Assembly (NCBI GenBank): GCA_026989395.1
Contig: JALSJK010000141.1
Coordinates: 1 to 48,431 of the forward strand
Origin: Methylomonas sp.
Lineage (GTDB): Bacteria; Pseudomonadota; Gammaproteobacteria; Methylococcales; Methylomonadaceae
Length of the DNA: 48,431 bases
Reading direction: 5' to 3'
Shown: in pieces, positions 280 to 12,715 of the stretch
Layout of the letters: the number at the start of each line of letters is the position of its first letter
Position numbering within the stretch: the first letter of the stretch is position 1
The notes under the pieces: generated by a model
Told to the model about the DNA's origin: nothing
Database searches by the model: none
Seen by the model: only the letters and a program-made list of their open reading frames with translations
Program-made: the position numbers and the translations under genes

Positions 280-885
280 TTAAATAAACGGGGCACACAT
301 AGGCAAGTAAATTGGAGTGTTTTCATGAGTTAACTCAGGATATTGCTGGAAATAGTAATTACAAAGATCCTGTAAACTATAACAACTATCACGTTGAGTA
401 CCTGCAGCAAATGTGGTATTGCAATAGCTTCCTTCATAATTCATAATTACAATCACATGGCCAGTAAATTTAGTCAGTTTTCCATTTTTCATCAATGTTC
501 CTTTAAAACTTTGTTTAGTGCTATTTATAGCATTACGCAAGGCTGCGCTAGGGTTAACAAGTTTTGCATCGCAACTACTAGCGGTATTGTATTCTTGGTG
601 GAGTAAGTTTTTAGAAGTATCTTGAATTACATTGTTCTCAACTTGCTTATTTTCGAATTTTCCACACGGTGTAACCTCTCTTCCTGTGGCAACGTTTATT
701 ACTTTTGGAGTGTTTTTATCAAAATCTATTGCTACTGCATGGACAGCCTTAATTTTGGCTAACTCAGGTATCAACTGTGGTACTAGAGCAGGTTTATCGA
801 GAGGGTGATGTTTATCATGATGATAAAAACCACAAGAAACAAGGATTGTGCTTGATACAATGATAACTATGATTTTAGTAAGCAT
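280..885 (-). CDS. Hypothetical lipoprotein
   Basis: The product has 201 residues and a lipoprotein signal peptide: a hydrophobic stretch followed by the lipobox LVSC with the lipid-attachment Cys at about residue 18, so it should be membrane-anchored on the periplasmic face. The rest is unfamiliar. It has several cysteines in the second half (YCN, SCYS, DLCN, MCAP) that could form disulfides. The ATG at 885 is preceded by AGGAGA at good spacing, which supports the start. The gene sits downstream of and in line with the FecR-TPR-barrel genes, but no functional link can be shown. Family not recognised. Confidence 0.75.
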   Translation of the reverse strand: MLTKIIVIIVSSTILVSCGFYHHDKHHPLDKPALVPQLIPELAKIKAVHAVAIDFDKNTPKVINVATGREVTPCGKFENKQVENNVIQDTSKNLLHQEYNTASSCDAKLVNPSAALRNAINSTKQSFKGTLMKNGKLTKFTGHVIVIMNYEGSYCNTTFAAGTQRDSCYSLQDLCNYYFQQYPELTHENTPIYLPMCAPFI

Positions 886-930: not shown

Positions 931-3900
931 TCAATAAGATAAGTTCATTTTAAAGAATATTTCACGTTCAGGGACAAAACGAGTCAGTTGAGGACCGCTC
1001 GCATCAAAAACACTGTTATATTTAAAGCCTTTATTGTCGAACAAGTTTCTAATTTCGAGACTGAAAAAGCCTAATTTTTTTGGCAGTCGGTATCCTAAAA
1101 TTGCATCAAATGTCCAAAAATCTTCATTTTCAATTTTTAAAAAATCTAACCCGCTTCCATTTAATTCTTCTTCGGGACGTACAAATTCAGTTTTTTGATT
1201 TATATAATTTGCAGTAATTCTTACAAAAATCCCATTAGGATGGAAAAAATTAAAGGTAGTTGGGACAAAGTGAGTTAGAGTTTTTCTTGGTAGTGATTTA
1301 TTACCTTCACCAACAACAAAATCACTTACAAAATCATCAAATTGATATTTAGTACTGATTGTTAACCAATTGGTTGGCGCCCAATTTATATATGCAAGAT
1401 GTGAGGTTTCATCTCGATCTCGAGGTTTTATGATCGTCTTATAGGGTTCAAGAAATGTCGTGTTGGTAATTTGTTCTGTTGTATGGCGCCAGAACAATTC
1501 GCCACCGACATATAGATTGTTGGTAGGCATAATATCAATGCCTATTCCATACTGCCAAGCTCGGGTTCCATTGTTATCATCAAAAAATTGATTGAATCCA
1601 GCTATTTGTGTCGGTTCAATAGTTTGATTGACAGTTAAAGGTCTTTTTAAAGTTCGAAAAGCAGCAGCGCGGAAAGTTAGTTTATTAAAAGGATTCCAGA
1701 TTAAACCAAATTTTGGATTGATTTGCTTTCTATCAAATATCTCTGTTTCGTAGTTTTCGAAACTTAGACCTAGAATGGTGGTTAAATTGGGGGTTATGTG
1801 ATATTGCGAATAGATATAACTGGTAAAAAAACTTTGTTTCTCAAAATTTTTACGTATTGGTAATTTTTTTCTTGTAGTTTTTTTGGGGGGGCCAAATGGT
1901 AATGGATTGGTTGTGGTTATTTCTTCAATTCTTTTTTGAATTGATTCAGATTTTAGGTTGTTGTATCCGATACCCAAGATGAAATTAAATCTTTCTAAAT
2001 TAAATAAATATTGGGCTTCCAATTGATAAGCTGTTTGTTCAATGCCTTCTGAATCATTTTTTTTTATTATTGTAGGCAAGGGAATTTCTTTTTTTACCAC
2101 TGTAGGATTAAGTTCTTGTTCTTTAAACTTTGTGTAGATAGCAGAAAAAATAAAATCCTGTTCTGGAGAAATTTTATACCGCAACCCAAACCTAGCTGAA
2201 TCCTGATCAATACTTTCCCTGAAATTTTCCTGATGAAACCCATTAAACCGCAACGGAACATCACCTGCAGTAACATCTTCTCTTTTAAACTCAACCTGAA
2301 TATTCAAATCAGGGGTAATAGCAACTTGAGCAAAAGCATTGTAAATATTTCGCTTATAATCATCATTTTTACGAAAACCGTCAGTCCGATATTGAAATTG
2401 GCCTAAACTGATCGAAAATTGGTCATAAACTCCTGTAATAATGGCGCTATCAGTACGAGTATCATTGCTGCCAATGGCACCATTTAATAAAATATGAGCG
2501 CCATTTGATGTAAATAATGGATCATATTCATTGGATGAGAGACTGCCAGGGCCGGTGGAATTGAGAATACCAATATTTTCACCGGTTAATTGCGGCTGTA
2601 CCGGCACGGTATTAATCGGTTGGAATAATTGCGCTTGCAGTAATTCACTGGCTCTAGCAATACGTTGCCTGGGCCTGCCTTGCAAAGTGTCAGATAAAAA
2701 CCGATGTGCTGATGGATTAGTATAGTCTTGGCCGAGCGAAGTCCAGGCTTGTTTAAGTGCTACGCGATCGAAACCCAAGTCTTGGTAAATACGGGCCATA
2801 TTGGCGGATCTTGCTGCGGTATCCTCATCCAACAACAACCTGGACCGATAAACCCCGCGATTATCATTCAATTCAATCGCTTTCTGCATATCATGCAACG
2901 CTTCAATTGGCCGGTTGGTTGTTTGTTTCAGTATCGCATCGTAAAACCACGGGGTTGGGTCGTTGGGGTCCATTTTCTTGGCGATGGCCAATTCCGTTGC
3001 CGCAAAGCCCTCATTTCTAAGTTCATAATAGGCTTTTCCCAAATAACTCCGCATGATGGCGTTGTCGGGGTCAAGGGTAACGGCGGCTTCTAGATCACGA
3101 GTGCCTTGTTTTATGTCGCCTTTTCTGATTTTTGCCAACCCGGTTCCCAGCCATGCCAATGGGTCGGCTGAATTCAGGCCGATGGCTTTGTTAAAAGCCG
3201 TTTTCGCTTCATCTATATCAATTTGTGCCAGATAGGCAAAACCTAATACGGTTTGAGTGCGTTCCAGTTGAGGATTGAGTTGTTGGGCCTTTTTTGCCGA
3301 TTCTAGGGCATCGCTGCGTTTGCCGGTTGACAGTTGTAATTCTGCCAGTCGCGCCCAAGCCAGAGCATTGCCGGGGTCTAGTTTTACGGCTTGTTGAGTG
3401 ACTTCCAGTGCTTCAGGAATTTTGAAAGCGGCTTGCAGGGCATAGGAAAGTGCAATTTGAGTTACCGCAGAGCCTGGGCTTAGCTGAGTGGATTTTCGTG
3501 CCAGTGTTAATGCTTGTTCTGTCCGGTTTTGGGTAACGGCGATAATGGTTTTAATGGCCAGTGCCGTGCTGCTGGTTGCTTTTATTTGTTGTGCATGTTC
3601 AGCTTCCTGCAATGCTTCGGTGACGCTGCCAACGGTTAATAATAAGGAAGCTTTCAGGGCAAAAAAATGATCATCTTGTTGGCGTGCTGGAACTTTTTCT
3701 AAAAGCTGCAAGGCTTGGTAGACATTGCCTTGTTGATAAGCATTTAGGGCTGTTTGTAAAGTTGGTATGGTTTCAAGGTTTTGGAAATCTACAATGGGTG
3801 GATAATATAACGCCCATTGCACCGCGTCTTTAGGATGAATGGTCAGTGCTTTCACCCTTGTGATCTGGTCTTTGCCGGTTATGCCAACTTGTTGTTTATT

Positions 3901-4404
3901 AATTAGTACCCGGCCAGTTTGGTTTTCGGCGGCAACCCGTCCGTCAAAAACGGTAATTTCTGTTTGTTGCTTAGATACCCGAACTAGAAACTCAGTACCT
4001 TCATGGACGGCATTAACAAACGGGGTATCAATTTCAAGTTGGTGTGGGTGACGGCTTCTAAAAAATGCGCCGCCTTCAAATAATTCCAGTAACCAGGAGA
4101 ATTTACTCTTGTTCAGGATTGGAAAACTCAGGGTACTGCTTTGTTCTAATGTCACCAGAGATTCATTGCCAAGTTCGATCGTTACTCGGCTATGCCGGTT
4201 GGTGCGAAGTCTGTCGCCCTGGCAAAAATATTCATCTTTTTTGACAGCAATCCATTGTGAGTGACGATACCCTAGTTTTTCAACCTGGCCTTTGGCTGAG
4301 ACTAATTTGGCAATCCACTGCTGCTCACACTCCGGCGCTGCTTTCACAACGTATGGAAAGCTGAGAATGATGACAGTAAAATAAAGTCGGGTATTTATTA
4401 GCAC
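931..4404 (-). CDS. FecR-TPR-outer membrane beta-barrel fusion, copy 1
   Basis: The protein has 1157 residues in three parts. A signal peptide (about 1-23) leads into a FecR domain (about 30-180; GDRLRTNRHSRVTIELG, TPFVNAVHEGTEFLV and VFDGRVA are typical). A TPR array follows (about 210-590; repeated A-W/L-G-x-A-x6-A and N-P elements). The rest, to 1157, resembles the C-terminal barrel of TonB-dependent receptors: many aromatic-ended strands, an IRNLFDN motif and a final aromatic Tyr. No plug domain or TonB box is visible. Cys26 and Cys61 are conserved in the two FecR relatives nearby. The start is GTG at 4404 with a weak ribosome site. TPR plus barrel recalls PgaA- or BcsC-type exporters, while FecR recalls surface signalling; the role is unknown. 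Confidence 0.85.
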   Translation of the reverse strand: MLINTRLYFTVIILSFPYVVKAAPECEQQWIAKLVSAKGQVEKLGYRHSQWIAVKKDEYFCQGDRLRTNRHSRVTIELGNESLVTLEQSSTLSFPILNKSKFSWLLELFEGGAFFRSRHPHQLEIDTPFVNAVHEGTEFLVRVSKQQTEITVFDGRVAAENQTGRVLINKQQVGITGKDQITRVKALTIHPKDAVQWALYYPPIVDFQNLETIPTLQTALNAYQQGNVYQALQLLEKVPARQQDDHFFALKASLLLTVGSVTEALQEAEHAQQIKATSSTALAIKTIIAVTQNRTEQALTLARKSTQLSPGSAVTQIALSYALQAAFKIPEALEVTQQAVKLDPGNALAWARLAELQLSTGKRSDALESAKKAQQLNPQLERTQTVLGFAYLAQIDIDEAKTAFNKAIGLNSADPLAWLGTGLAKIRKGDIKQGTRDLEAAVTLDPDNAIMRSYLGKAYYELRNEGFAATELAIAKKMDPNDPTPWFYDAILKQTTNRPIEALHDMQKAIELNDNRGVYRSRLLLDEDTAARSANMARIYQDLGFDRVALKQAWTSLGQDYTNPSAHRFLSDTLQGRPRQRIARASELLQAQLFQPINTVPVQPQLTGENIGILNSTGPGSLSSNEYDPLFTSNGAHILLNGAIGSNDTRTDSAIITGVYDQFSISLGQFQYRTDGFRKNDDYKRNIYNAFAQVAITPDLNIQVEFKREDVTAGDVPLRFNGFHQENFRESIDQDSARFGLRYKISPEQDFIFSAIYTKFKEQELNPTVVKKEIPLPTIIKKNDSEGIEQTAYQLEAQYLFNLERFNFILGIGYNNLKSESIQKRIEEITTTNPLPFGPPKKTTRKKLPIRKNFEKQSFFTSYIYSQYHITPNLTTILGLSFENYETEIFDRKQINPKFGLIWNPFNKLTFRAAAFRTLKRPLTVNQTIEPTQIAGFNQFFDDNNGTRAWQYGIGIDIMPTNNLYVGGELFWRHTTEQITNTTFLEPYKTIIKPRDRDETSHLAYINWAPTNWLTISTKYQFDDFVSDFVVGEGNKSLPRKTLTHFVPTTFNFFHPNGIFVRITANYINQKTEFVRPEEELNGSGLDFLKIENEDFWTFDAILGYRLPKKLGFFSLEIRNLFDNKGFKYNSVFDASGPQLTRFVPEREIFFKMNLSY

Positions 4405-4531
4405 AATGTTTCTTTAATGGTTTTTATTTTTCAATCTTTATAGAGGAAGATTTTTCATTTCCACGCATTCTCGGCTATGCCTTATTTTTATTTGCTTTTG
4501 TCGGCATTGTATGCTCAATGTCTTTGAAAAT

Positions 4532-4553
4532 GCAATTTAATGGTAAAATTACC
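4532..4553. repeat. Palindrome-bearing repeat, copy A
   Basis: GCAATTTAATGGTAAAATTACC matches positions 5083-5104 with two mismatches. The core GGTAAAATTACC is a near-perfect palindrome. It lies just past the stop of the truncated FecR gene. Confidence 0.5.
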
Positions 4554-4558
4554 ATGTT

Positions 4559-4945
4559 TTAACTAGTTGCCGGATGACCAACAACTTTCGCCAACCAGAA
4601 CAGATACTGTTGAATCAGATTAAGGCGTAAATCGTGTTGTTTAACTGTATCGGGAAAGGTCAGGGTGCTGTTCGGCTCTAGTTCCACGGTTGTGGCCGGT
4701 TCGATAATGAGCTTAAGTTTTGCCCGGCTATTTCGTGCGGTACGGATTTTGTCACCATAACAAAAACTATCGTAGGAGCTGACGGGCCGCCATCTTGTTT
4801 GATTTTTTGTTAATTTTTCTACTTTTCCTTTTGCCGATATCAATCTGGCGACCCATTGCTCACACTCGGGTGAGGCTTCAAGTGAAAGCGAAGTAATGAG
4901 AAAAAGAAAAAAAAGGTAAACTTTGCTGTGTATCATAGCCGCCAT
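4559..4945 (-). pseudogene. Truncated FecR-domain copy
   Basis: This 128-residue product aligns with the N-terminus of the two large neighbours: a signal peptide, then PECEQW, SAKGKVEKL, a Cys before GDKIRTARNSRAKL, and NSTLTFP. After that it diverges and stops, missing the second half of the FecR domain (the NAVHEGTEF part), the TPRs and the barrel. It sits exactly between the two full-length copies. The simplest reading is a leftover of tandem duplication. It keeps an intact signal peptide and the Cys pair, so it could still be a small secreted protein. ATG at 4945 or 4936 could serve as start; neither has a strong ribosome site. Confidence 0.6.
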
Positions 4946-5082
4946 CCATAAGAGTGATCTTCTTATTAATATGAACTTGTTTTTTCTTCATCCCTGGATC
5001 CGTTTTTTTTATTAGATATTACATAAAGAAAAATGAGTTCTTTTTGTTTTGATGGAATAGTAAGCGTTATGAAAGGAGGAAA

Positions 5083-5104
5083 GCAATGTAATGGTAATAT
5101 TACC
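5083..5104. repeat. Palindrome-bearing repeat, copy B
   Basis: This is the second copy of the 22-base motif at 4532-4553; its core GGTAATATTACC is a perfect 12-base palindrome. The two copies bracket the truncated FecR gene. Confidence 0.5.
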
Positions 5105-5230
5105 GGGGATGCGGACGGCGGTTATTTCTACTTCATAACCCCCCTTCGTTCGAAGAGGGTCTTTGTTAAATGTTTTAGGAATGAGCACGGAATAAGTTTG
5201 GCATGGCAATTGGCGCCGTATTTTTATTCG

Positions 5231-5371
5231 TATTCAAGGCGTAGAAATAGGCGCATAGCCAGCTATGTATACTGTTTACGCTGAAAAATACACTTTTTAC
5301 ATTCTGTAACATACTGAATATAAAGCAATTGTTGTGATTGTATTGAGGTATTTTTGGCCGTAAACAGTATA
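5231..5371. repeat. Hairpin-forming intergenic repeat
   Basis: Two structures are visible. Positions 5239-5282 fold around CATAGC-CA-GCTATG with outer arms GCGTAGAAATA and TACTGTTTACGC. In addition, 5268-5290 and 5349-5371 are 23-base inverted copies of each other (TATTTTT, then GTAAACAGTATA). The inner AGGCGCATAGC-AGCTAYG core also occurs, in reverse, in the palindromic element at 18862-19027, so this is probably one member of an interspersed repeat family. Two further small hairpins, at GGTTAT/ATAACC and CCCTTCG/CGAAGAGGG, lie just to the left between 5118 and 5160. Confidence 0.6.
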
Positions 5372-5440
5372 ACTATTTTTACTACGCAGAAGACGGATAA
5401 AAAGACAAGCCAGTTATTAAAGTTATTTCATATTCGTTCC

Positions 5441-5758
5441 TTACTGCTTTTGAGTGCCGGATGGACATTGGCTGCCAGGAAATTGTCTGCAAACTTTGAT
5501 AATAGTCGTTCCACCAGGTGTGCGAATGGGAACATCAGCACAGCATTTTACGGATGTGCTGCGCAGTTTTAAAACGGGTGCAGCGGGCTGCTCCAGTTCT
5601 GCAGTTGATTTTTTTGTAAATACAACTGATCCATCGTCCGCTAATTCAGGCACGTAGACTTCTGAATAGGATTGGTTTTCTTCTGCTTGAGTGGTTGAAA
5701 TCAGCAATAGTGAGATGAAAACAGAAATAATGAGATGTTTGAGTTTACGATTATTCAT
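5441..5758 (-). CDS. Small secreted Cys-containing protein
   Basis: The product has 105 residues with a clear signal peptide ending at about TTQA. The mature part begins acidic (EENQSYSEVYVPELADDG) and ends in a Cys-rich tail (VKCCADVP, VCRQFPGSQCPSG). GAGG precedes the ATG at 5758 with good spacing. It lies between the truncated FecR copy and the second large FecR-TPR-barrel gene on the same strand, so it may belong to that locus. Family not recognised. Confidence 0.7.
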   Translation of the reverse strand: MNNRKLKHLIISVFISLLLISTTQAEENQSYSEVYVPELADDGSVVFTKKSTAELEQPAAPVLKLRSTSVKCCADVPIRTPGGTTIIKVCRQFPGSQCPSGTQKQ

Positions 5759-5891
5759 GATATGCCTCGCTTGTTTTTGTTATATAAATGCGTAGTCTGG
5801 AACAGTTTTCTTGGGCTAATTGCCAAGTTTTAGATTAACACTTTTATTTACTGCGGTCAGTAAATTCTGATGAAGTGACACGCAATGGAAA

Positions 5892-8800
5892 TCAAAAAAC
5901 ATCAAAATCAAAAATCACTTGACCAAAAAGTGTACGTTCAGGTAAGTATCGCGCTCTGCTTGGTAAGCCAGTAATCAGGTTTCTATCCGCATACTGGTAA
6001 TTTTCATTCAACAAATTTCTGATGCCGAATTCAGCACGACCATATCTTTTAGGGAATTTGTAGCCAATAAGAGCATCAATTGACCAGAAATGTTCGTGTC
6101 CAGAGTTTTCAGCAGCATCACTGCGAACCCGCTGTTTAACAAAGGTGGCACGAAATTTAGAATATAAGCCATTGGCGGCGAAGAAATTTAATGATATGGG
6201 TACTTGATGAGTAATAATATCGCTAAGGAAAGGGTTGCTGTTCGATATTTCTTTGCTAATTTGCCGGTCAAGTATGACTAACTGGTACTCTATACTGGTT
6301 GAAATTTGTTTGGTTGGGGTCCAGTTAAAATAGCTTCGGGCAGTAAATTCATGTTGGCGTTCGTATTGTATAAAGGCTGAATCAGCTGTTACCTGGATAA
6401 AATCAGGACTGCTGTCATCAATTAGCGGGATATCTGGTTCTGAAACAACAACCGGAACTTTCAGCTTTCGATAAGTGCCTTCAAGCCCAAAATAAGTGGA
6501 TTGATTAAATTTGTGATCGATACCTAAACCAAAGTGCTCATATTTTGTGCCGGCATCATCGTCAAAAAATTGTACAAAACCGGCGATTTGTGCGGGTTCA
6601 ATAGTTTGATTGGCGCTAAATGTTTTTTTCACCCCTTGAAAATAGGCGGCTCGTAGAGTGGTGCTGTCAAACAAGTTCCAGAGTAGGCCAAGTTTGGGGT
6701 TAAAGCGCTGAATGTCGGGTAAGGTATGATTATCGATGGAGTCAAAACTGACGCCTAAAATAGCAGTGAGATTTTTATAAGTCAGAAAAGAATAAAGATA
6801 GGCGTTAATGTGGTCTGAATCTCGATCGGTACGGGTATTGATTTTGAGAGCAACATCTTTGGCAGGAATGTTAAAAAAGCCAGGAATGAAAAAGCCCGGG
6901 ATATGAATATTTTGGGTTAGCAACACATTTTGCGGTTGGTTATTGTTGATATAGCCAGCACCAGCAATCAATTTAGCCCATTTGAAATCTTTGATCATTT
7001 GCAGTTCAATGCTGAAGGTATCTGCATTGTCCTTTATACTGACCGGGAGAGAGTCGCTAGCAAATTCGGTGGTAAAACCTGAAGAAAAGTCATCTTTGGT
7101 ATAAATACCTGAAAACAGAATATTCGTTGCAGGATCGGGTTGAAAATGTCCGCCAACCCGGTAAAGTTGCCGTTTGAATTTTTCCTGCAAGGTATTTGAG
7201 AACAAACGGTTGTTAAAATATTGGCTCAAATCGCCATTTTTCAGGAAATTGTAGCGATATTCAAATTGCAGGTTCAGTTTGTCTGTCAATTGGTATTGGA
7301 CAAAGGCATTGTAGATGTCTTGTTTGATAGCGTTATTCTCGCGGACTCCATCACTTTGGAAATGGTATTGTCCAATGCTATATGATAATTTGTTCCAAAT
7401 GCCGGCATGAACCAATTCTTCTCCATAACTCCCTTTATTGCCAATTATGCCAGACCCTTGCAGGGTAAATTGGTTACGTTCGAATAGCGAATTGTATTCG
7501 TTAAAAGAGGTGCTTCCTAAAGTATTGGAAGCTAAACGATCACTTTCTGCCAGACGTGGTTGAATTGGCGTGATATTAATCGGCTGTAATAATTGTGATT
7601 GCAAAAGAGCGCTGACACGGGCAATTTCATGACGTGGCAAAGCGGCATAATTGTCGGCCAGTAAGCGATGGGCAGAATAATTTGCCGGATCAATAGTCAC
7701 CGATTTCCAGCCTTCAACCAGGCCGAGTTGTTGAAAACCCAAATCATTGTAAATTCTTCCGAGACTGGCGCTACGGGCTGCTAAATCTTCGTCAAGCAGC
7801 AATTTTGAGCGATAAATACCTCTGTTATCATTTAATTCGATGGCTTTTTGCATGTCATGGAAGGCTTCGATAGGTCGATTTTGCGTTTGTTTAAGAATGG
7901 CATCGTAAAACCACGGAGTCGGGTCATTTGGATCCATTTCTTTACCAAGAGTAAATTCAGTTGCCGCAAAGTTTTCATTTTTGAGTTCGTAATAGGCTTT
8001 CCCCAAGTAGCTACGAATAAGGGCATTGTTAGGATCTAAATTGACGGCAGTTTCCAATTCCCGGGTTCCTTCTGCAAGTAAACCGGATCTGATTTTTGCC
8101 AGACCTAAACCTAAATGGGCGAGGGGATCGGAAGAATCTGATTTAATAGCTTGGTTGAAAGCCAGCTGTGCTCGTTCGATCTCAATTTGGGCTAGATAGA
8201 CAAAACCAAGGATGGTTAGGGTTCTGGGCTGTTCTGGGTTGAGGATTTGGGCTTTTGCAGCCGCATCAAGTGCGCCACTTCGATTTCCTGAAGCCAGGCG
8301 TAATTCAGCCAATCTGGCCCAGGCCAAAGCATTTTCGGGCGACAAATGTGTGGCTTGCTGGGTGGCAAGCAATGCTTTGTCGATATCAAACCTGGCCTGA
8401 TACACATAGGACAAGGCGATTTTTGCGATAGCCGATTCAGGATTACGTTTAGTGGCCTGCAATGCCAGATTTTCAGCTTTGGAGAGTTGGTTCTTGCTTA
8501 AAGCAATGACTGATTTAAGAGCTATTGCGGTGCCGAATGTCGTTTCCAGTCTCTCTGCTTGTTGCAAGTCATCAAGAGCTTCTTCAACACTTCCCACTGT
8601 TAAAAGTAAAGATGCCTTCAAAGCGAAAAAATATTCATTCTGCAGGGTTTTTGGCGTATGTTCCAGAATGGTAAGCGCTTGATAAATATTGCCATGATGA
8701 TAAGCGGATAAGGCTTTTTGAATGTCCGGGGTATGGATGACTGATGCCAGTTTTTGGTAATCAACAATGGGTGGATAATATAAAGCCCACTGCACAGCAT

Positions 8801-9401
8801 CTTCCTGATTTATGGTTATGGGGCGTTTCTGAGGGGCTTGATTCTGAGTAGAAATTGCCATGAAGCCTTTTTCAATTTTGATTTGGCCAGCCTGATTTTT
8901 TGCGGCAACACGGCCATCAAATACTGTAATTTCAGTGCGGTTGTTTTTGACGGTAACCAAGAATTCCGTACCTTCATGGACTGCATTAACGAAAGGAGTA
9001 TGAATTTCCAGTTGATGGAATTTTCGGCTTCTAAAAAATGCCGAACCTTTGAAAAAGTTGATAAACCAGGAAAGTGATTGATTTTGAGTAGGGGCGGGGA
9101 AGATCAGGGTACTGTTTTGTTCCAGTGTCACCAAAGATTGATTACTGAATTCCAGTGTTACCCTGCTATGGCGTAATGTTCGAATTTTATCACCCGGGCA
9201 AAAAATTTCGTTGCTGGCAGTTTGTTGCCATGAGGATTGATTAGCATGCTGAATTTCAATGCGACCATTTCCAGAGGCAATCCTGGCAAGCCATTGTTCA
9301 CATTCTGATGCTATTGTAATACCGGAAAGGAATGATAAAAAAAAGAAAAAAAGACAGTTTGAGAAGAAGAGCCATTTTGTTGTTCTTGTAAATGATGCCA
9401 T
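5892..9401 (-). CDS. FecR-TPR-outer membrane beta-barrel fusion, copy 2
   Basis: This 1169-residue paralogue of the 931-4404 gene has the same order: signal peptide (about 1-31), FecR domain with the ECEQW and FCPGDKIRT cysteines and VNAVHEGTEFLV, a TPR array, then a plug-less beta-barrel with IRNLLNEN near the end and a terminal Phe. The FecR and TPR parts are very close to copy 1 (for instance YPPIVD, then ELNDNRG-YRS-LLLDED), while the barrel loops diverge strongly. That is what is expected if the surface-exposed loops face different ligands or phage. The ATG at 9401 has only a weak ribosome site. The cyclase gene upstream is 160 bases away on the same strand, so co-transcription is plausible. 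Confidence 0.85.
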   Translation of the reverse strand: MASFTRTTKWLFFSNCLFFFFLSFLSGITIASECEQWLARIASGNGRIEIQHANQSSWQQTASNEIFCPGDKIRTLRHSRVTLEFSNQSLVTLEQNSTLIFPAPTQNQSLSWFINFFKGSAFFRSRKFHQLEIHTPFVNAVHEGTEFLVTVKNNRTEITVFDGRVAAKNQAGQIKIEKGFMAISTQNQAPQKRPITINQEDAVQWALYYPPIVDYQKLASVIHTPDIQKALSAYHHGNIYQALTILEHTPKTLQNEYFFALKASLLLTVGSVEEALDDLQQAERLETTFGTAIALKSVIALSKNQLSKAENLALQATKRNPESAIAKIALSYVYQARFDIDKALLATQQATHLSPENALAWARLAELRLASGNRSGALDAAAKAQILNPEQPRTLTILGFVYLAQIEIERAQLAFNQAIKSDSSDPLAHLGLGLAKIRSGLLAEGTRELETAVNLDPNNALIRSYLGKAYYELKNENFAATEFTLGKEMDPNDPTPWFYDAILKQTQNRPIEAFHDMQKAIELNDNRGIYRSKLLLDEDLAARSASLGRIYNDLGFQQLGLVEGWKSVTIDPANYSAHRLLADNYAALPRHEIARVSALLQSQLLQPINITPIQPRLAESDRLASNTLGSTSFNEYNSLFERNQFTLQGSGIIGNKGSYGEELVHAGIWNKLSYSIGQYHFQSDGVRENNAIKQDIYNAFVQYQLTDKLNLQFEYRYNFLKNGDLSQYFNNRLFSNTLQEKFKRQLYRVGGHFQPDPATNILFSGIYTKDDFSSGFTTEFASDSLPVSIKDNADTFSIELQMIKDFKWAKLIAGAGYINNNQPQNVLLTQNIHIPGFFIPGFFNIPAKDVALKINTRTDRDSDHINAYLYSFLTYKNLTAILGVSFDSIDNHTLPDIQRFNPKLGLLWNLFDSTTLRAAYFQGVKKTFSANQTIEPAQIAGFVQFFDDDAGTKYEHFGLGIDHKFNQSTYFGLEGTYRKLKVPVVVSEPDIPLIDDSSPDFIQVTADSAFIQYERQHEFTARSYFNWTPTKQISTSIEYQLVILDRQISKEISNSNPFLSDIITHQVPISLNFFAANGLYSKFRATFVKQRVRSDAAENSGHEHFWSIDALIGYKFPKRYGRAEFGIRNLLNENYQYADRNLITGLPSRARYLPERTLFGQVIFDFDVF

Positions 9402-9561
9402 TATTTATCTTTAGTGCATCTATTTCTTACGTGTTATAAGGAATGGTGATACACGAATACTGTATATTATGTGGGTTGAAGGAAAGTAGAGATTAACATA
9501 AAAACTAAGTAGATCCCATTTTCGATTTGTTTTCGAAAGTTTTAGTAGCTCGTTTGTGCCA

Positions 9562-11832
9562 TTAAAATGCAATCCGACCATTTAGTTTTTCGGTTTCAAT
9601 TACCGCTGGTAATTGAGGAAGTTCTGTTTTTTCCATATAGAAAGGTTGATGTATTTCCAGAAAGTGTATGTAAAACAGGGTTGGACCGTCATTGGGAAAA
9701 TTGTTTTTGATGTTGCTGAAAGCTTGGAGTGCTTCTAACCACTGACTGTTTTTGAAGAAGTTCAGGGCTTTAGAAAATTCTGATTTTAAAGTAAACCACG
9801 ACTCAGGAATGTCTTGCTCCAGACCAATTATTTCATGGATGATGATGGGTTTGGTTTTACCTTTAAGAATAAATTGACCAACTTCCCGGGTAAAAAAACC
9901 GGATAAACCCCGTGTGATTTGTTCCGAAGCCAGAATTCGCGTTCCTAATAACTTATTCAAGCCTTCGATGCGGGTGGCAGTATTGATAATGTCTCCCACT
10001 GCCCGATATTCATAATGCTCTTTGGCCCCAACATTGCCCAGTCGCATACTGCCATAATGCAAACCAATACGGGTCGGAAGCTGGTCCGGTTGGCGTTGAT
10101 TAAATTCATCAATCGCGTTGATAATTTCCATTGCAGCTTGAGAAGCTTCTTGTTGGGGATTGTCAGTTTCTTTGGAAACGGCCCACAATGCCATCATGGC
10201 ATCACCAATAACATCAGAAATGATGCCGCCATGCTTTTGTACCAGTGGGAACATAACCGAATAATACTGGTTCATTAAGTCTGCCAGCTGCATGGGGTCT
10301 TTGGATTCGGACAGGGTTGTGTATTGGCCTGCATCGGTGGCCAAACAAACACCTTGCTTCAATTCCCCGTAACTATTCATGGACTCACTGGCAGGCTGGC
10401 TGGAGATTTTATCGACTACGTCTTTGGGTAAATAAAAACTAAAAGCTTTTTGCAGGTTTTGATGGGAAAGGTTGTTGGAGATATAGTGGAAAATGGATGC
10501 AGTCAATATAACTAGCGGCGCTTGAATGAAAATTGGCGTAATGATGGGTAGCCAAAGATTAAAATATTTGAATAAATAATAGCAAAGCAAAACATTGACC
10601 AAACAGGCAAGAATGATAGTCAAGACTACTTTTTTGTATGAAAAAAACCGGCAGAAACCCGCCAGCATCATGCCCCAAAGTAGGACCAGGAGAAATTGCT
10701 GGGATAAAGGTAGTGGCTTTATCCAGGAATTGTCAAGCAGGTTGGCAACAGCGGTGGCAGCAATTTCAATCGGGCTAATGGTATCCGCAGCAGATTCGGA
10801 ATAAACATTATAAAAGCCAGGGTTTTTTTCCGGGTGGATATTTTCAGAATAGCCGACTAGAACAATTTTGTTATGGAACGTTTCCGGGCGCAATATATCG
10901 CTGACCAGGGCTTGATAGAAAGGAATCGTGGTAATGGTGCCGGCTCTTCCGTAGTGATTGAAGTACAAGCTGTCGCCGCTATCATGAAAATTCAGCCAGG
11001 ATTGCAGTAATTGTTTTTTTTTTGATGGAAAGCTGGATTGTTCCAGTATGTTTTGAAAACGAGCTAAAAGAGATGGGTCAATTTTAAATTGATTATAAAT
11101 TTTTTGAACGAAATTAGTGGTTGTAAATGGCTCTGAAAGTAGTAAAGCTAAATTTTGATCTGTTTTTACCAGTAACTCTGATAATTCCGGAAAAACCTTT
11201 TTTAAAATGGAGCTGTGGAAAATACAGCTGGGGAAGGTAGGGGTTCCACCTGCACTGGCTTTATATATCCAGAATTGTTTTACTGATGAAGAAGTTTTTG
11301 GCAGGGGGAATGGACAGACATCCAATGCCGCATTTTCCAGTAGTGGAAGAGGGTATACAACTCTTTCACTAACCATGTTGGGAATATTAGAACGAGATTT
11401 TCTGTTAACGAAAATTGAGCGCCTTTCAAGGTAGTTACTGAGGATGACATTTTTTTCCGAAGCCATTGCTTCAGCCAGGATTTGGTCATTTCTTGCGTCG
11501 CGCGGTTCAGCAAAGTTAATATTGAAGGCAATGATAGCCGGCGCTTGTTGATTAAGTTTGTTGATCAGTTCAGCATAATAAGATCGGGGCCATTTTTCAG
11601 GATCGGCAGGTAACCTCAGTACCTCAGCAGATAACTTGTCGATGCTGATGATTGCGACATCTTTGGGCGGCTGTAGTGGGCCTCTGATTGTATAAAACCA
11701 GTCGAGTCCTGCTTCTTCAAGGTTCTCTCCCCAAGGGGTTAAACTAAAAAGTGAACCTAATAGACCAATAAAAACTGCAAGAATGCAGGCCTTTCCTGTC
11801 TTGATGCAAAACATAATTGGGTTTGCTGCCAT
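9562..11832 (-). CDS. CHASE2-domain class III nucleotide cyclase
   Basis: This 756-residue inner-membrane protein has a first membrane helix (about 7-30), a periplasmic CHASE2 sensor (about 35-345; DVAIISIDKLSAEVL and a later NKIVLVGYS are typical), three close membrane helices (about 365-445), then a cytoplasmic class III cyclase domain (about 480-640). Both metal-binding Asp are present (ATDAGQYTTLSE and VIGDAMMALW), as are the catalytic Asn and Arg in NTATR. The usual adenine-selecting Lys position appears to be Asp, so cAMP versus cGMP is uncertain. FecR-domain genes are common neighbours of CHASE2 cyclases, and two full copies plus a fragment lie downstream here. Confidence 0.9.
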   Translation of the reverse strand: MAANPIMFCIKTGKACILAVFIGLLGSLFSLTPWGENLEEAGLDWFYTIRGPLQPPKDVAIISIDKLSAEVLRLPADPEKWPRSYYAELINKLNQQAPAIIAFNINFAEPRDARNDQILAEAMASEKNVILSNYLERRSIFVNRKSRSNIPNMVSERVVYPLPLLENAALDVCPFPLPKTSSSVKQFWIYKASAGGTPTFPSCIFHSSILKKVFPELSELLVKTDQNLALLLSEPFTTTNFVQKIYNQFKIDPSLLARFQNILEQSSFPSKKKQLLQSWLNFHDSGDSLYFNHYGRAGTITTIPFYQALVSDILRPETFHNKIVLVGYSENIHPEKNPGFYNVYSESAADTISPIEIAATAVANLLDNSWIKPLPLSQQFLLVLLWGMMLAGFCRFFSYKKVVLTIILACLVNVLLCYYLFKYFNLWLPIITPIFIQAPLVILTASIFHYISNNLSHQNLQKAFSFYLPKDVVDKISSQPASESMNSYGELKQGVCLATDAGQYTTLSESKDPMQLADLMNQYYSVMFPLVQKHGGIISDVIGDAMMALWAVSKETDNPQQEASQAAMEIINAIDEFNQRQPDQLPTRIGLHYGSMRLGNVGAKEHYEYRAVGDIINTATRIEGLNKLLGTRILASEQITRGLSGFFTREVGQFILKGKTKPIIIHEIIGLEQDIPESWFTLKSEFSKALNFFKNSQWLEALQAFSNIKNNFPNDGPTLFYIHFLEIHQPFYMEKTELPQLPAVIETEKLNGRIAF

Positions 11833-12202: not shown

Positions 12203-12715
12203 CTAAAAGCAATTGCCATAATCCAGCATTAATTCCTGGCAGTCAAAGAAAATCCTGGGGTACTGAATTCTAATGTATAGTTTTAGCGCGTATTCCAGCG
12301 CTATAGCCAATGTTACTAATCGGGCAGAAGCTGCCCAGAATTTAGAATGGGTGTTAAATGATGCTCGCCAAATGGAAACACACCACCAGATAATGGGATT
12401 GATAAGTACAAAATGGGCAACGTCCCAACTTGAAACAGTCAAGGTGCCGGTTTTTGCCAGATAATCAATGTAAATCAGAGCGCCATTTAGCAGAATAAAA
12501 AAAGACCAGAATATTTTCCATAATGGTAAATATCCGCACCAGGCAGCAAACAAATAGTCACGGAAGGTTTTAATTTTGGGGATGTCTGGGAAAGGTTCCG
12601 GTTCCGGAGCGCTGATATAAAGAATCAACAACAGTGCTGTGCTAATGGCAAGAAGATCGACATAGGATAACAAGGAGCTTTGGGAGGTGATAATTGGCAG
12701 GGAGAAATAAAACAT
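12203..12715 (-). CDS. Small integral membrane protein, unknown
   Basis: The product has 170 residues and four or five hydrophobic segments (near residues 15-35, 60-80, 100-115 and 130-145), with an acidic proline-rich loop APEPEPFPDIP after the first. It is rich in Trp, Tyr and Phe and ends with ELMLDYGNCF. It lies 13 bases downstream of the aspartic protease gene on the same strand and is probably co-transcribed with it. No ribosome site is evident before the ATG. Family not recognised. Confidence 0.65.
   Translation of the reverse strand: MFYFSLPIITSQSSLLSYVDLLAISTALLLILYISAPEPEPFPDIPKIKTFRDYLFAAWCGYLPLWKIFWSFFILLNGALIYIDYLAKTGTLTVSSWDVAHFVLINPIIWWCVSIWRASFNTHSKFWAASARLVTLAIALEYALKLYIRIQYPRIFFDCQELMLDYGNCF

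Follow-up and report, generated by a model that had tools for sequence, protein, structure and literature searches.

Two described systems combine parts of the locus examined here: a TonB-dependent-receptor-type barrel and a FecR domain work in one pathway in FecA-FecR-FecI iron signalling, and in the export porins PgaA and BcsC an array of tetratricopeptide repeats (TPRs) precedes the barrel. The locus lies on contig 141 (JALSJK010000141.1) of the 3.27-Mb genome of Methylomonas sp. (assembly GCA_026989395.1), of which positions 1 to 48,431 of the forward strand were analysed (hereafter the window), and consists of two tandem genes for FecR-TPR-barrel proteins, here called receptors 1 and 2, beside a gene for a CHASE2 nucleotide cyclase. 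Its closest described relative is the NsrA-CyaK-Clr pathway, a cyclic AMP (cAMP) pathway of plant-signal perception in Sinorhizobium meliloti. The accessible text of the reports describes NsrA as an outer-membrane receptor needed for signal perception, CyaK as its cognate cyclase and Clr as a CRP-type regulator (PMC7529298, PMC13001267, PMC10463352), and the genetics of NsrA gives the barrel protein a place before the cyclase in the pathway (PMC7529298, PMC13001267). The main features of the window are the following, secretion and lipoprotein signals in its proteins having been judged by eye.

9562-11832, minus strand: CHASE2-class III nucleotide cyclase, 756 amino acids (aa), from Pfam and an AlphaFold2 model.
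5892-9401, minus strand: receptor 2 (FTB2), 1169 aa, with signal peptide, FecR domain, TPR array and barrel, from Pfam; its start lies 161 bp past the end of the cyclase gene on the same strand.
931-4404, minus strand: receptor 1 (FTB1), 1157 aa, with signal peptide, FecR domain, TPRs and plug-less barrel, from Pfam, an AlphaFold2 model and fold matches.
934-2502, minus strand: barrel-coding portion of receptor 1, residues 635-1157, from the AlphaFold2 model.

We consider it likely that these genes encode a cell-surface-to-cyclic-nucleotide relay of the NsrA-CyaK kind. In such a relay, the two tandem outer-membrane receptors, with plug-less barrels of the TonB-dependent-receptor type, would meet an outside cue, presumably a ligand, through variable surface loops; the signal, presumably directed inwards in methanotrophs too, would pass along the periplasmic TPR array to the N-terminal FecR module, which would engage the periplasmic CHASE2 domain of the putative inner-membrane cyclase encoded next door; cyclase activity would then shift, and a CRP-type regulator would read the cyclic nucleotide. 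The relay has its basis here in the architecture, linkage across genera, homology to NsrA in all three segments, catalytic residues that are all in place and a CRP-type gene that recurs nearby; the genetic need for the receptor in the signal response has been demonstrated by others, for NsrA/CyaK only. It would bear on how an outer-membrane receptor switches an inner-membrane cyclase, NsrA-CyaK included, and would suggest, besides FecA/FecR/FecI, a route from the cell surface to a cyclic nucleotide.

The initial annotation had described two fusions of about 1160 residues in which a secreted FecR domain and a TPR array are joined to a plug-less barrel, and the Pfam scan agrees with this description. 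FecR was found over the curated cut-off in both receptors (E 9.4e-15 and 1.7e-13), and TPR families were found with E values down to 1.4e-18 in receptor 1 and 4.2e-13 in receptor 2. The plug family was absent from the scan of both receptors (E up to 0.01), and the sole barrel model was a sub-threshold OMP_b-brl match in receptor 2 (E 0.00085). An AlphaFold2 model was made for receptor 1 alone, from 43 sequences (predicted local distance difference test score (pLDDT) 81.2; predicted template modelling score (pTM) 0.78), so that the beta-barrel foreseen in the initial annotation is modelled for receptor 1 and extended to receptor 2 by 45% identity between the two over their whole length. In the model, a beta FecR domain (residues ~32-186) is followed by a superhelix of TPR helices (214-594) and, after ~40 residues between the last TPR helix and the first barrel strand, by 22 long strands (635-1156; counted from the DSSP list, leaving out a short strand at 842-847). 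Foldseek returned TonB-dependent transporters at ranks 1-35 of the best 50 matches, with FpvA as the top match (E 2.9e-16); the nearest solved barrels among those listed were the TonB-dependent receptors FpvA, FhuE and FecA, not PgaA or BcsC. With VIA-align, which barely covered the FecR residues, TPR proteins took the top scores (Z up to 25.2), and among barrels PirA scored best (Z 19.9, root-mean-square deviation 3.0 over 403 residues). The barrel of receptor 1 is thereby identified as of the TonB-dependent-receptor type: the model has the 22 strands of that class and no N-terminal plug, with the TPR and FecR modules in the plug's place.

These matches bear on the export half of the initial annotation, which had left sensing and export side by side and likened the receptors to PgaA and BcsC. 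Under that explanation, the large proteins would export a polymer as porins of the PgaA/BcsC type, with the cyclase regulating the process. The overall order of TPRs and C-terminal barrel is shared with such porins, and the PgaA and BcsC models do give weak matches, which cover the TPR part only (E 0.007-0.008 and 3.9e-5) and stay far below the cut-off: 14.5 and 14.7 bits against 366.65 for the curated PgaA model, and 21.6 bits (receptor 2) against 858 for BcsC. However, the 22-strand barrel matches TonB-dependent receptors, two related FecR-TPR proteins, at loci L092 and L094, are recognised by the TonB-dependent-receptor barrel family itself (E 2.6e-15 and 6.3e-12), and the window's receptors differ from PgaA and BcsC further in their FecR domain and CHASE2 neighbour. 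Moreover, beyond the receptor, CHASE2, CRP-type and lipoprotein-like families, no neighbour family occurs in more than 6 of 54 loci; all neighbour counts over these loci are lower bounds, the ORF caller (ORF, open reading frame) having missed some CHASE2 genes, and a minority of neighbours were individually annotated. The export explanation was dropped after the fold matches, and we regard it as highly improbable. Sensing with cyclic-nucleotide output, the other half of the initial proposal, gains from the linkage, the CRP-type neighbour and the homology to NsrA-CyaK described below.

A second explanation starts from the FecR family itself and from the FecA-like type of the barrel: FecR might work as in iron signalling, through an extracytoplasmic function (ECF) sigma factor encoded elsewhere. 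In contrast to FecA-FecR-FecI, the window has a single polypeptide, no detected plug, a FecR domain without a membrane anchor and no sigma factor on the contig. None of the nine Sigma70_r2 matches in the genome falls on the window's contig, in keeping with the initial remark that no sigma factor was near. Because FecR directly follows the signal peptide, with just a 4-residue helix (191-194) before the TPRs in the model, the receptor FecR would have no cytoplasmic anti-sigma part; of the features of a FecR anti-sigma regulator, neither the cytoplasmic part nor the membrane helix nor a FecI partner was found for receptor 1. The linkage, furthermore, goes to CHASE2. The ECF sigma link was dropped on the Sigma70_r2 result, and it is to us the least probable of the explanations weighed here.

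Further features of the receptors concern the surface loops and the FecR region. Loops L4, L5, L6, L8, L9 and L10 are variable (majority-residue share 0.00-0.22); shares of 0.74, 0.73 and 0.75 mark L2, L7 (920-947) and the last TPRs as conserved. The sidedness of the loops was deduced from strand order, and mostly-gap columns scored 0. The signal peptide and the barrel together suggest an outer-membrane location. Because a plug-less 22-strand barrel would be wide, something should close the pore, and the conserved loop L7, the TPR/FecR part and the lipoprotein-like protein encoded downstream are candidates. In the FecR region, C26 and C61 are conserved in at least 90% of the 43 sequences, are both present by eye in the FecR-only ORF between the receptor genes, and may form a disulfide. 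Our guess is that the tandem receptors widen the cue range of one cyclase.

A search with the window cyclase led to cyaK, which on a pSymB of S. meliloti shares one base with the gene for a 'FecR domain-containing protein' of 1190 aa. Pfam gave FecR, TPRs and a sub-threshold barrel match in this protein and CHASE2 and cyclase domains in CyaK. We take nsrA to lie directly upstream of cyaK. The accessible text of PMC7529298 places the NsrA barrel at residues 600-1200, and on these two grounds we took the 1190-aa protein to be NsrA. Profile comparison of the 43 receptors with seven NsrA-type proteins gave a probability of 99.95 over 1005 columns, and the FecR, TPR and barrel segments each matched on their own (E 1.5e-20, 2.8e-17 and 4.7e-10; reversed controls 0.058, 0.45 and 0.053, respectively). 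Window-type cyclases matched CyaK with E 9.3e-66 over 586 columns in the same kind of comparison. As in NsrA, a secreted FecR domain, central TPRs and, in the model, a C-terminal barrel from about residue 600 are encoded beside a CHASE2 class III cyclase. A tblastn search of plasmid records with receptor 2 (E up to 1e-8) found 10 records, all Rhizobiaceae. Judged by sequence comparison, then, the FecR-TPR-barrel plus CHASE2 architecture is a relative of NsrA-CyaK and not new in kind, a precedent that the initial annotation had omitted. Tandem receptors, a FecR-only gene, a downstream lipoprotein-like gene and a D540/R610 purine pair in the cyclase would be variations on it. Literature searches, for which most subscription journals were out of reach, found no paper on this system in methanotrophs.

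The initial annotation had proposed a survey of relatives for constant linkage to the CHASE2 cyclase, and such linkage was found. A search with receptor 1 gave some match (E up to 0.001) in 55 of 61 family genomes, its closest named relatives coming from records of Methylomonas, Methylobacter, Crenothrix and Methyloglobulus. The survey was confined to matches with E up to 1e-100 (41 places in 29 genomes) and set aside second ORF pieces, FecR-only ORFs, one contig-edge piece and weaker rows that matched the TPR part. Thirty of these places share a contig with a CHASE2 match, which lies within 6.3 kb in all 30 and within 2.3 kb in 29. The other 11 have no CHASE2 on the contig, and for 8 of them the contig breaks off no more than 1.5 kb away, so that one side is unseen. 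In a second collection, which overlaps the first and includes 11 duplicate loci, a CHASE2 gene was present in 20 of 29 loci, among them records titled Nitrospirota, Methylomirabilota, Deltaproteobacteria and Desulfocapsaceae. CHASE2 lies upstream of the receptor in 19 of 33 pairs, downstream in 12 and on the opposite strand in 2 (31 of 33 co-oriented), and 18 of the 19 CHASE2-first pairs have a gap of 81-260 bp; NsrA-CyaK differs from the CHASE2-first majority, and also in its one-base overlap, the methanotroph intergenic distance being at least 81 bp. Across the wider phylum, the receptor was found in 6 of 299 genomes (E up to 1e-40), four of the six matches being weaker (27-34% identity, one genus); this search scored at most two candidates per genome, and per-genome receptor counts are therefore lower bounds. 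One complete genome outside the family, G162, has three receptor ORFs, two of them flanking a CHASE2 gene on the same side, an arrangement shared with the window. Overall, the survey supports a near-constant receptor-CHASE2 linkage in the family; the receptor-cyclase pair is common in methane oxidisers, and its occurrence there shows this class of receptor to be common beyond the rhizobia as well.

Linkage of this kind might also mark an inherited cluster of independent envelope genes without direct receptor-cyclase signalling. Some unlinked receptors exist, and the correlation between receptor and CHASE2 distance matrices (mirror-tree r 0.79; best of 2000 shuffles, 0.23) could reflect shared descent; because it is confounded in this way, we do not use it as proof. 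Yet the linkage holds with CHASE2 on either side of the receptor or on the opposite strand, and with outer neighbours that differ, and alphaproteobacterial relatives retain the same pair. We judge an independent cluster to be very unlikely.

Class III cyclases use two metal-binding aspartates and a transition-state asparagine and arginine. The window cyclase, recognised as a CHASE2 cyclase in the initial annotation and matched by Pfam (CHASE2 E 4.5e-30, Guanylate_cyc E 1e-17), has all four (D500, D544, N617 and R621), and across 36 linked cyclases the corresponding residues are kept in 36, 36, 35 and 36 sequences. The protein is ordered as an N-terminal helix, CHASE2 (27-390), helices read as membrane helices, the cyclase domain (499-662) and a C-terminal helical tail. 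The cyclase domain filled the best 50 fold matches of its AlphaFold2 model (pLDDT 86.5, pTM 0.63), with no solved structure of a periplasmic CHASE2 part among them, a negative to which we attach no weight. Class III adenylate cyclases select adenine by a lysine paired with threonine/serine or aspartate. That lysine is present in none of the 36 linked cyclases (D in 30, N in 4, E in 2); the second purine position is R in 31, S in 3 and G in 2, and the D/R pair, D540/R610 in the window, occurs in 29. The unusual pocket turns the identity of the messenger into a direct biochemical question.

After the receptor and CHASE2, the commonest neighbour over the 54 loci is the CRP/FNR-type family, with 25 genes in 24 loci. 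Nineteen of those genes, in 18 loci, belong to one type of ~221 aa (sorted by shared motifs), whose position relative to the receptor varies in both side and strand. PF00027 and a Crp-type helix-turn-helix were found in the two members scanned, and the type contains a GE...PRSA motif, which we take to be a cyclic-nucleotide-binding motif. In 10 of the 54 loci, a homologue of the lipoprotein-like gene follows a receptor gene at a distance of no more than ~50 bp.

The CRP-type genes also bring in the reverse arrangement, in which the barrels are transporters or pores under cyclase/CRP control, the CHASE2 protein senses, and the receptors are targets rather than input. CHASE2 is itself a periplasmic sensor domain, and its gene stands first in most pairs, as counted above. 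A scan for CRP-like sites (TGTGA-N6-TCACA, 350 bp upstream, mononucleotide shuffles) further gave an excess ahead of CRP-type genes (7 of 19 vs 2.6 expected with up to two mismatches; 3 vs 0.25 with up to one), some of these loci being close relatives. No excess was seen ahead of the receptor genes, however (3 of 43 vs 6.3 and 1 vs 0.6, respectively), and because the best sites of the CRP-type genes come from related loci, the scan yields no conclusion. FecR also recurs beside CHASE2 in proteins without the barrel family, which argues for a periplasmic joint, and the NsrA genetics cited above, as far as the accessible text goes, sets the barrel protein before the cyclase. That the receptors are targets is, on this evidence, unlikely.

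Several observations weigh against the proposed relay from receptor to cyclase. The purine pair of CyaK is K/S, unlike the D/R of the window, and because of this difference cAMP cannot be assumed as the product. The window genome's one CRP-type orthologue (63% identity) lies on another contig, and CRP-like sites ahead of CHASE2 genes numbered 5 of 36 against 5.3 expected with up to two mismatches (2 vs 0.2 with up to one). S. meliloti was not matched in the tblastn search with receptor 2 at E 1e-8, and the link to it rests on profiles. The acidic barrel proposed for the NsrA ligand is absent from receptor 1 (61 acidic and 62 basic residues) and barely present in receptor 2 (56 and 52), and this ligand idea was not carried over to receptor 1. 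With respect to linkage, three strong places (G033:C311, G009:C70 and G009:C159) have no CHASE2 in the 2.5-7.8 kb examined on each side, the third receptor ORF of G162 (L089) has none in the 20 kb scanned, and four FecR-TPR proteins of another family (L091-L094, 1099-1351 aa) have none in the 5-20 kb scanned.

FecR and CHASE2 are also paired in other settings. At locus L070 (8735-15114), the gene after a complete receptor gene encodes CHASE2-GGDEF-EAL in place of the cyclase, apparently an output swap behind the same receptor type, which suggests that the receptor's partner is CHASE2 rather than the cyclase domain. In the window's genome, the only other Pfam FecR protein, a LysM-FecR protein of 553 aa, is encoded 9 bp from the only other CHASE2 protein, CHASE2-PAS-GGDEF-EAL (L077:6987-11495, genome contig 167), which would make a second FecR-CHASE2 pair, with cyclic di-GMP as output. 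Because the CHASE2 partner varies at L070 and the LysM-FecR gene adjoins the second CHASE2 gene, FecR and CHASE2 look like a joint, and we name them as the candidate contact of the relay. Similarly, the Burkholderia BiofilmReg operon encodes a LysM-FecR protein beside a CHASE2 histidine kinase (PMC5192318); its output is a kinase, and no barrel or TPR is described in the accessible text. A Campylobacterota cluster, alike by description, groups a CHASE2 adenylate cyclase with a FecR outer-membrane protein (PMC9239204), and differs, according to the accessible text, in that FecR and TPR are separate proteins and a phosphodiesterase is added. In a phylum-wide six-frame scan of 5-20 kb, 12 of 34 CHASE2 loci, chosen manually and for the most part among the highest-scoring entries, had a FecR match, so that the pairing is common but not universal. 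A broader form of the relay would make FecR-CHASE2 a general joint, with plug-less TonB-type barrels or LysM proteins exchanged on the receptor side and a class III cyclase, GGDEF-EAL or a histidine kinase on the output side, the methanotroph D/R cyclase making a cyclic nucleotide other than cAMP for a dedicated CRP-type regulator; taken whole, it strikes us as rather unlikely. At L095 (8557-12909), the gene directly upstream of a CHASE2 gene encodes a FecR protein of 1450 aa that also has cadherin-like and Ig-like domains and matches RTX weakly.

The window holds three further small genes around the receptors, of which the first and the second had not been mentioned in the initial annotation.

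4559-4945, minus strand: FecR-only secreted protein, 128 aa, homologous to the receptor N-terminus.
280-885, minus strand: small lipoprotein-like gene, 201 aa, directly downstream of receptor 1.
5441-5758, minus strand: small secreted protein, 105 aa, downstream of receptor 2.

On the minus strand, the order is clan AA aspartic protease, small membrane protein, CHASE2-cyclase, receptor 2, 105-aa protein, FecR-only ORF, receptor 1 and lipoprotein-like gene, the whole series lying downstream of a glnD-like gene (read by eye). The FecR-only ORF is 43% identical to the start of the large receptors, and in L005, which lies on the contig of G006:C281, it is likewise conserved before receptor 1. Because its nonsynonymous and synonymous substitution rates against L005 (dN 0.17, dS 0.90, 127 codons) look like purifying selection, it is probably a real gene rather than debris; its product might, at a guess, act as a decoy or adaptor. 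A Pfam scan of the 201-aa lipoprotein-like protein gave no family. The 105-aa protein recurs only in L010 and L011 (plus L069, a duplicate of L010).

Further families were seen beside these genes. A 170-aa membrane protein (by eye; 12203-12715), for which no Pfam family was found, lies between the aspartic protease gene and the cyclase and is kept in L010 and L011. Loci L012, L013, L014, L021, L022 and L027 have in common a protein family of 107-156 aa whose gene starts right after the receptor gene or overlaps it a little; the L013 member gave no Pfam family, and in four of the six a motif resembling ATxEILGxxL occurs near the N-terminal half. At the rhizobial plasmid loci, a PycTM/DUF5706 (Pycsar effector-like) gene on the opposite strand adjoins the NsrA-type gene in 7 of 9 cases (L129 at 1138-1683, minus strand, and L128, L131, L132, L134, L135 and L136; L128 and L129 are both S. 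meliloti). A search profile built from three of the seven PycTM genes detected none among the ORFs called in other loci, the methanotroph loci included, which differ from the NsrA loci in this respect. The PycTM neighbour may bear on the role of the NsrA-CyaK messenger.

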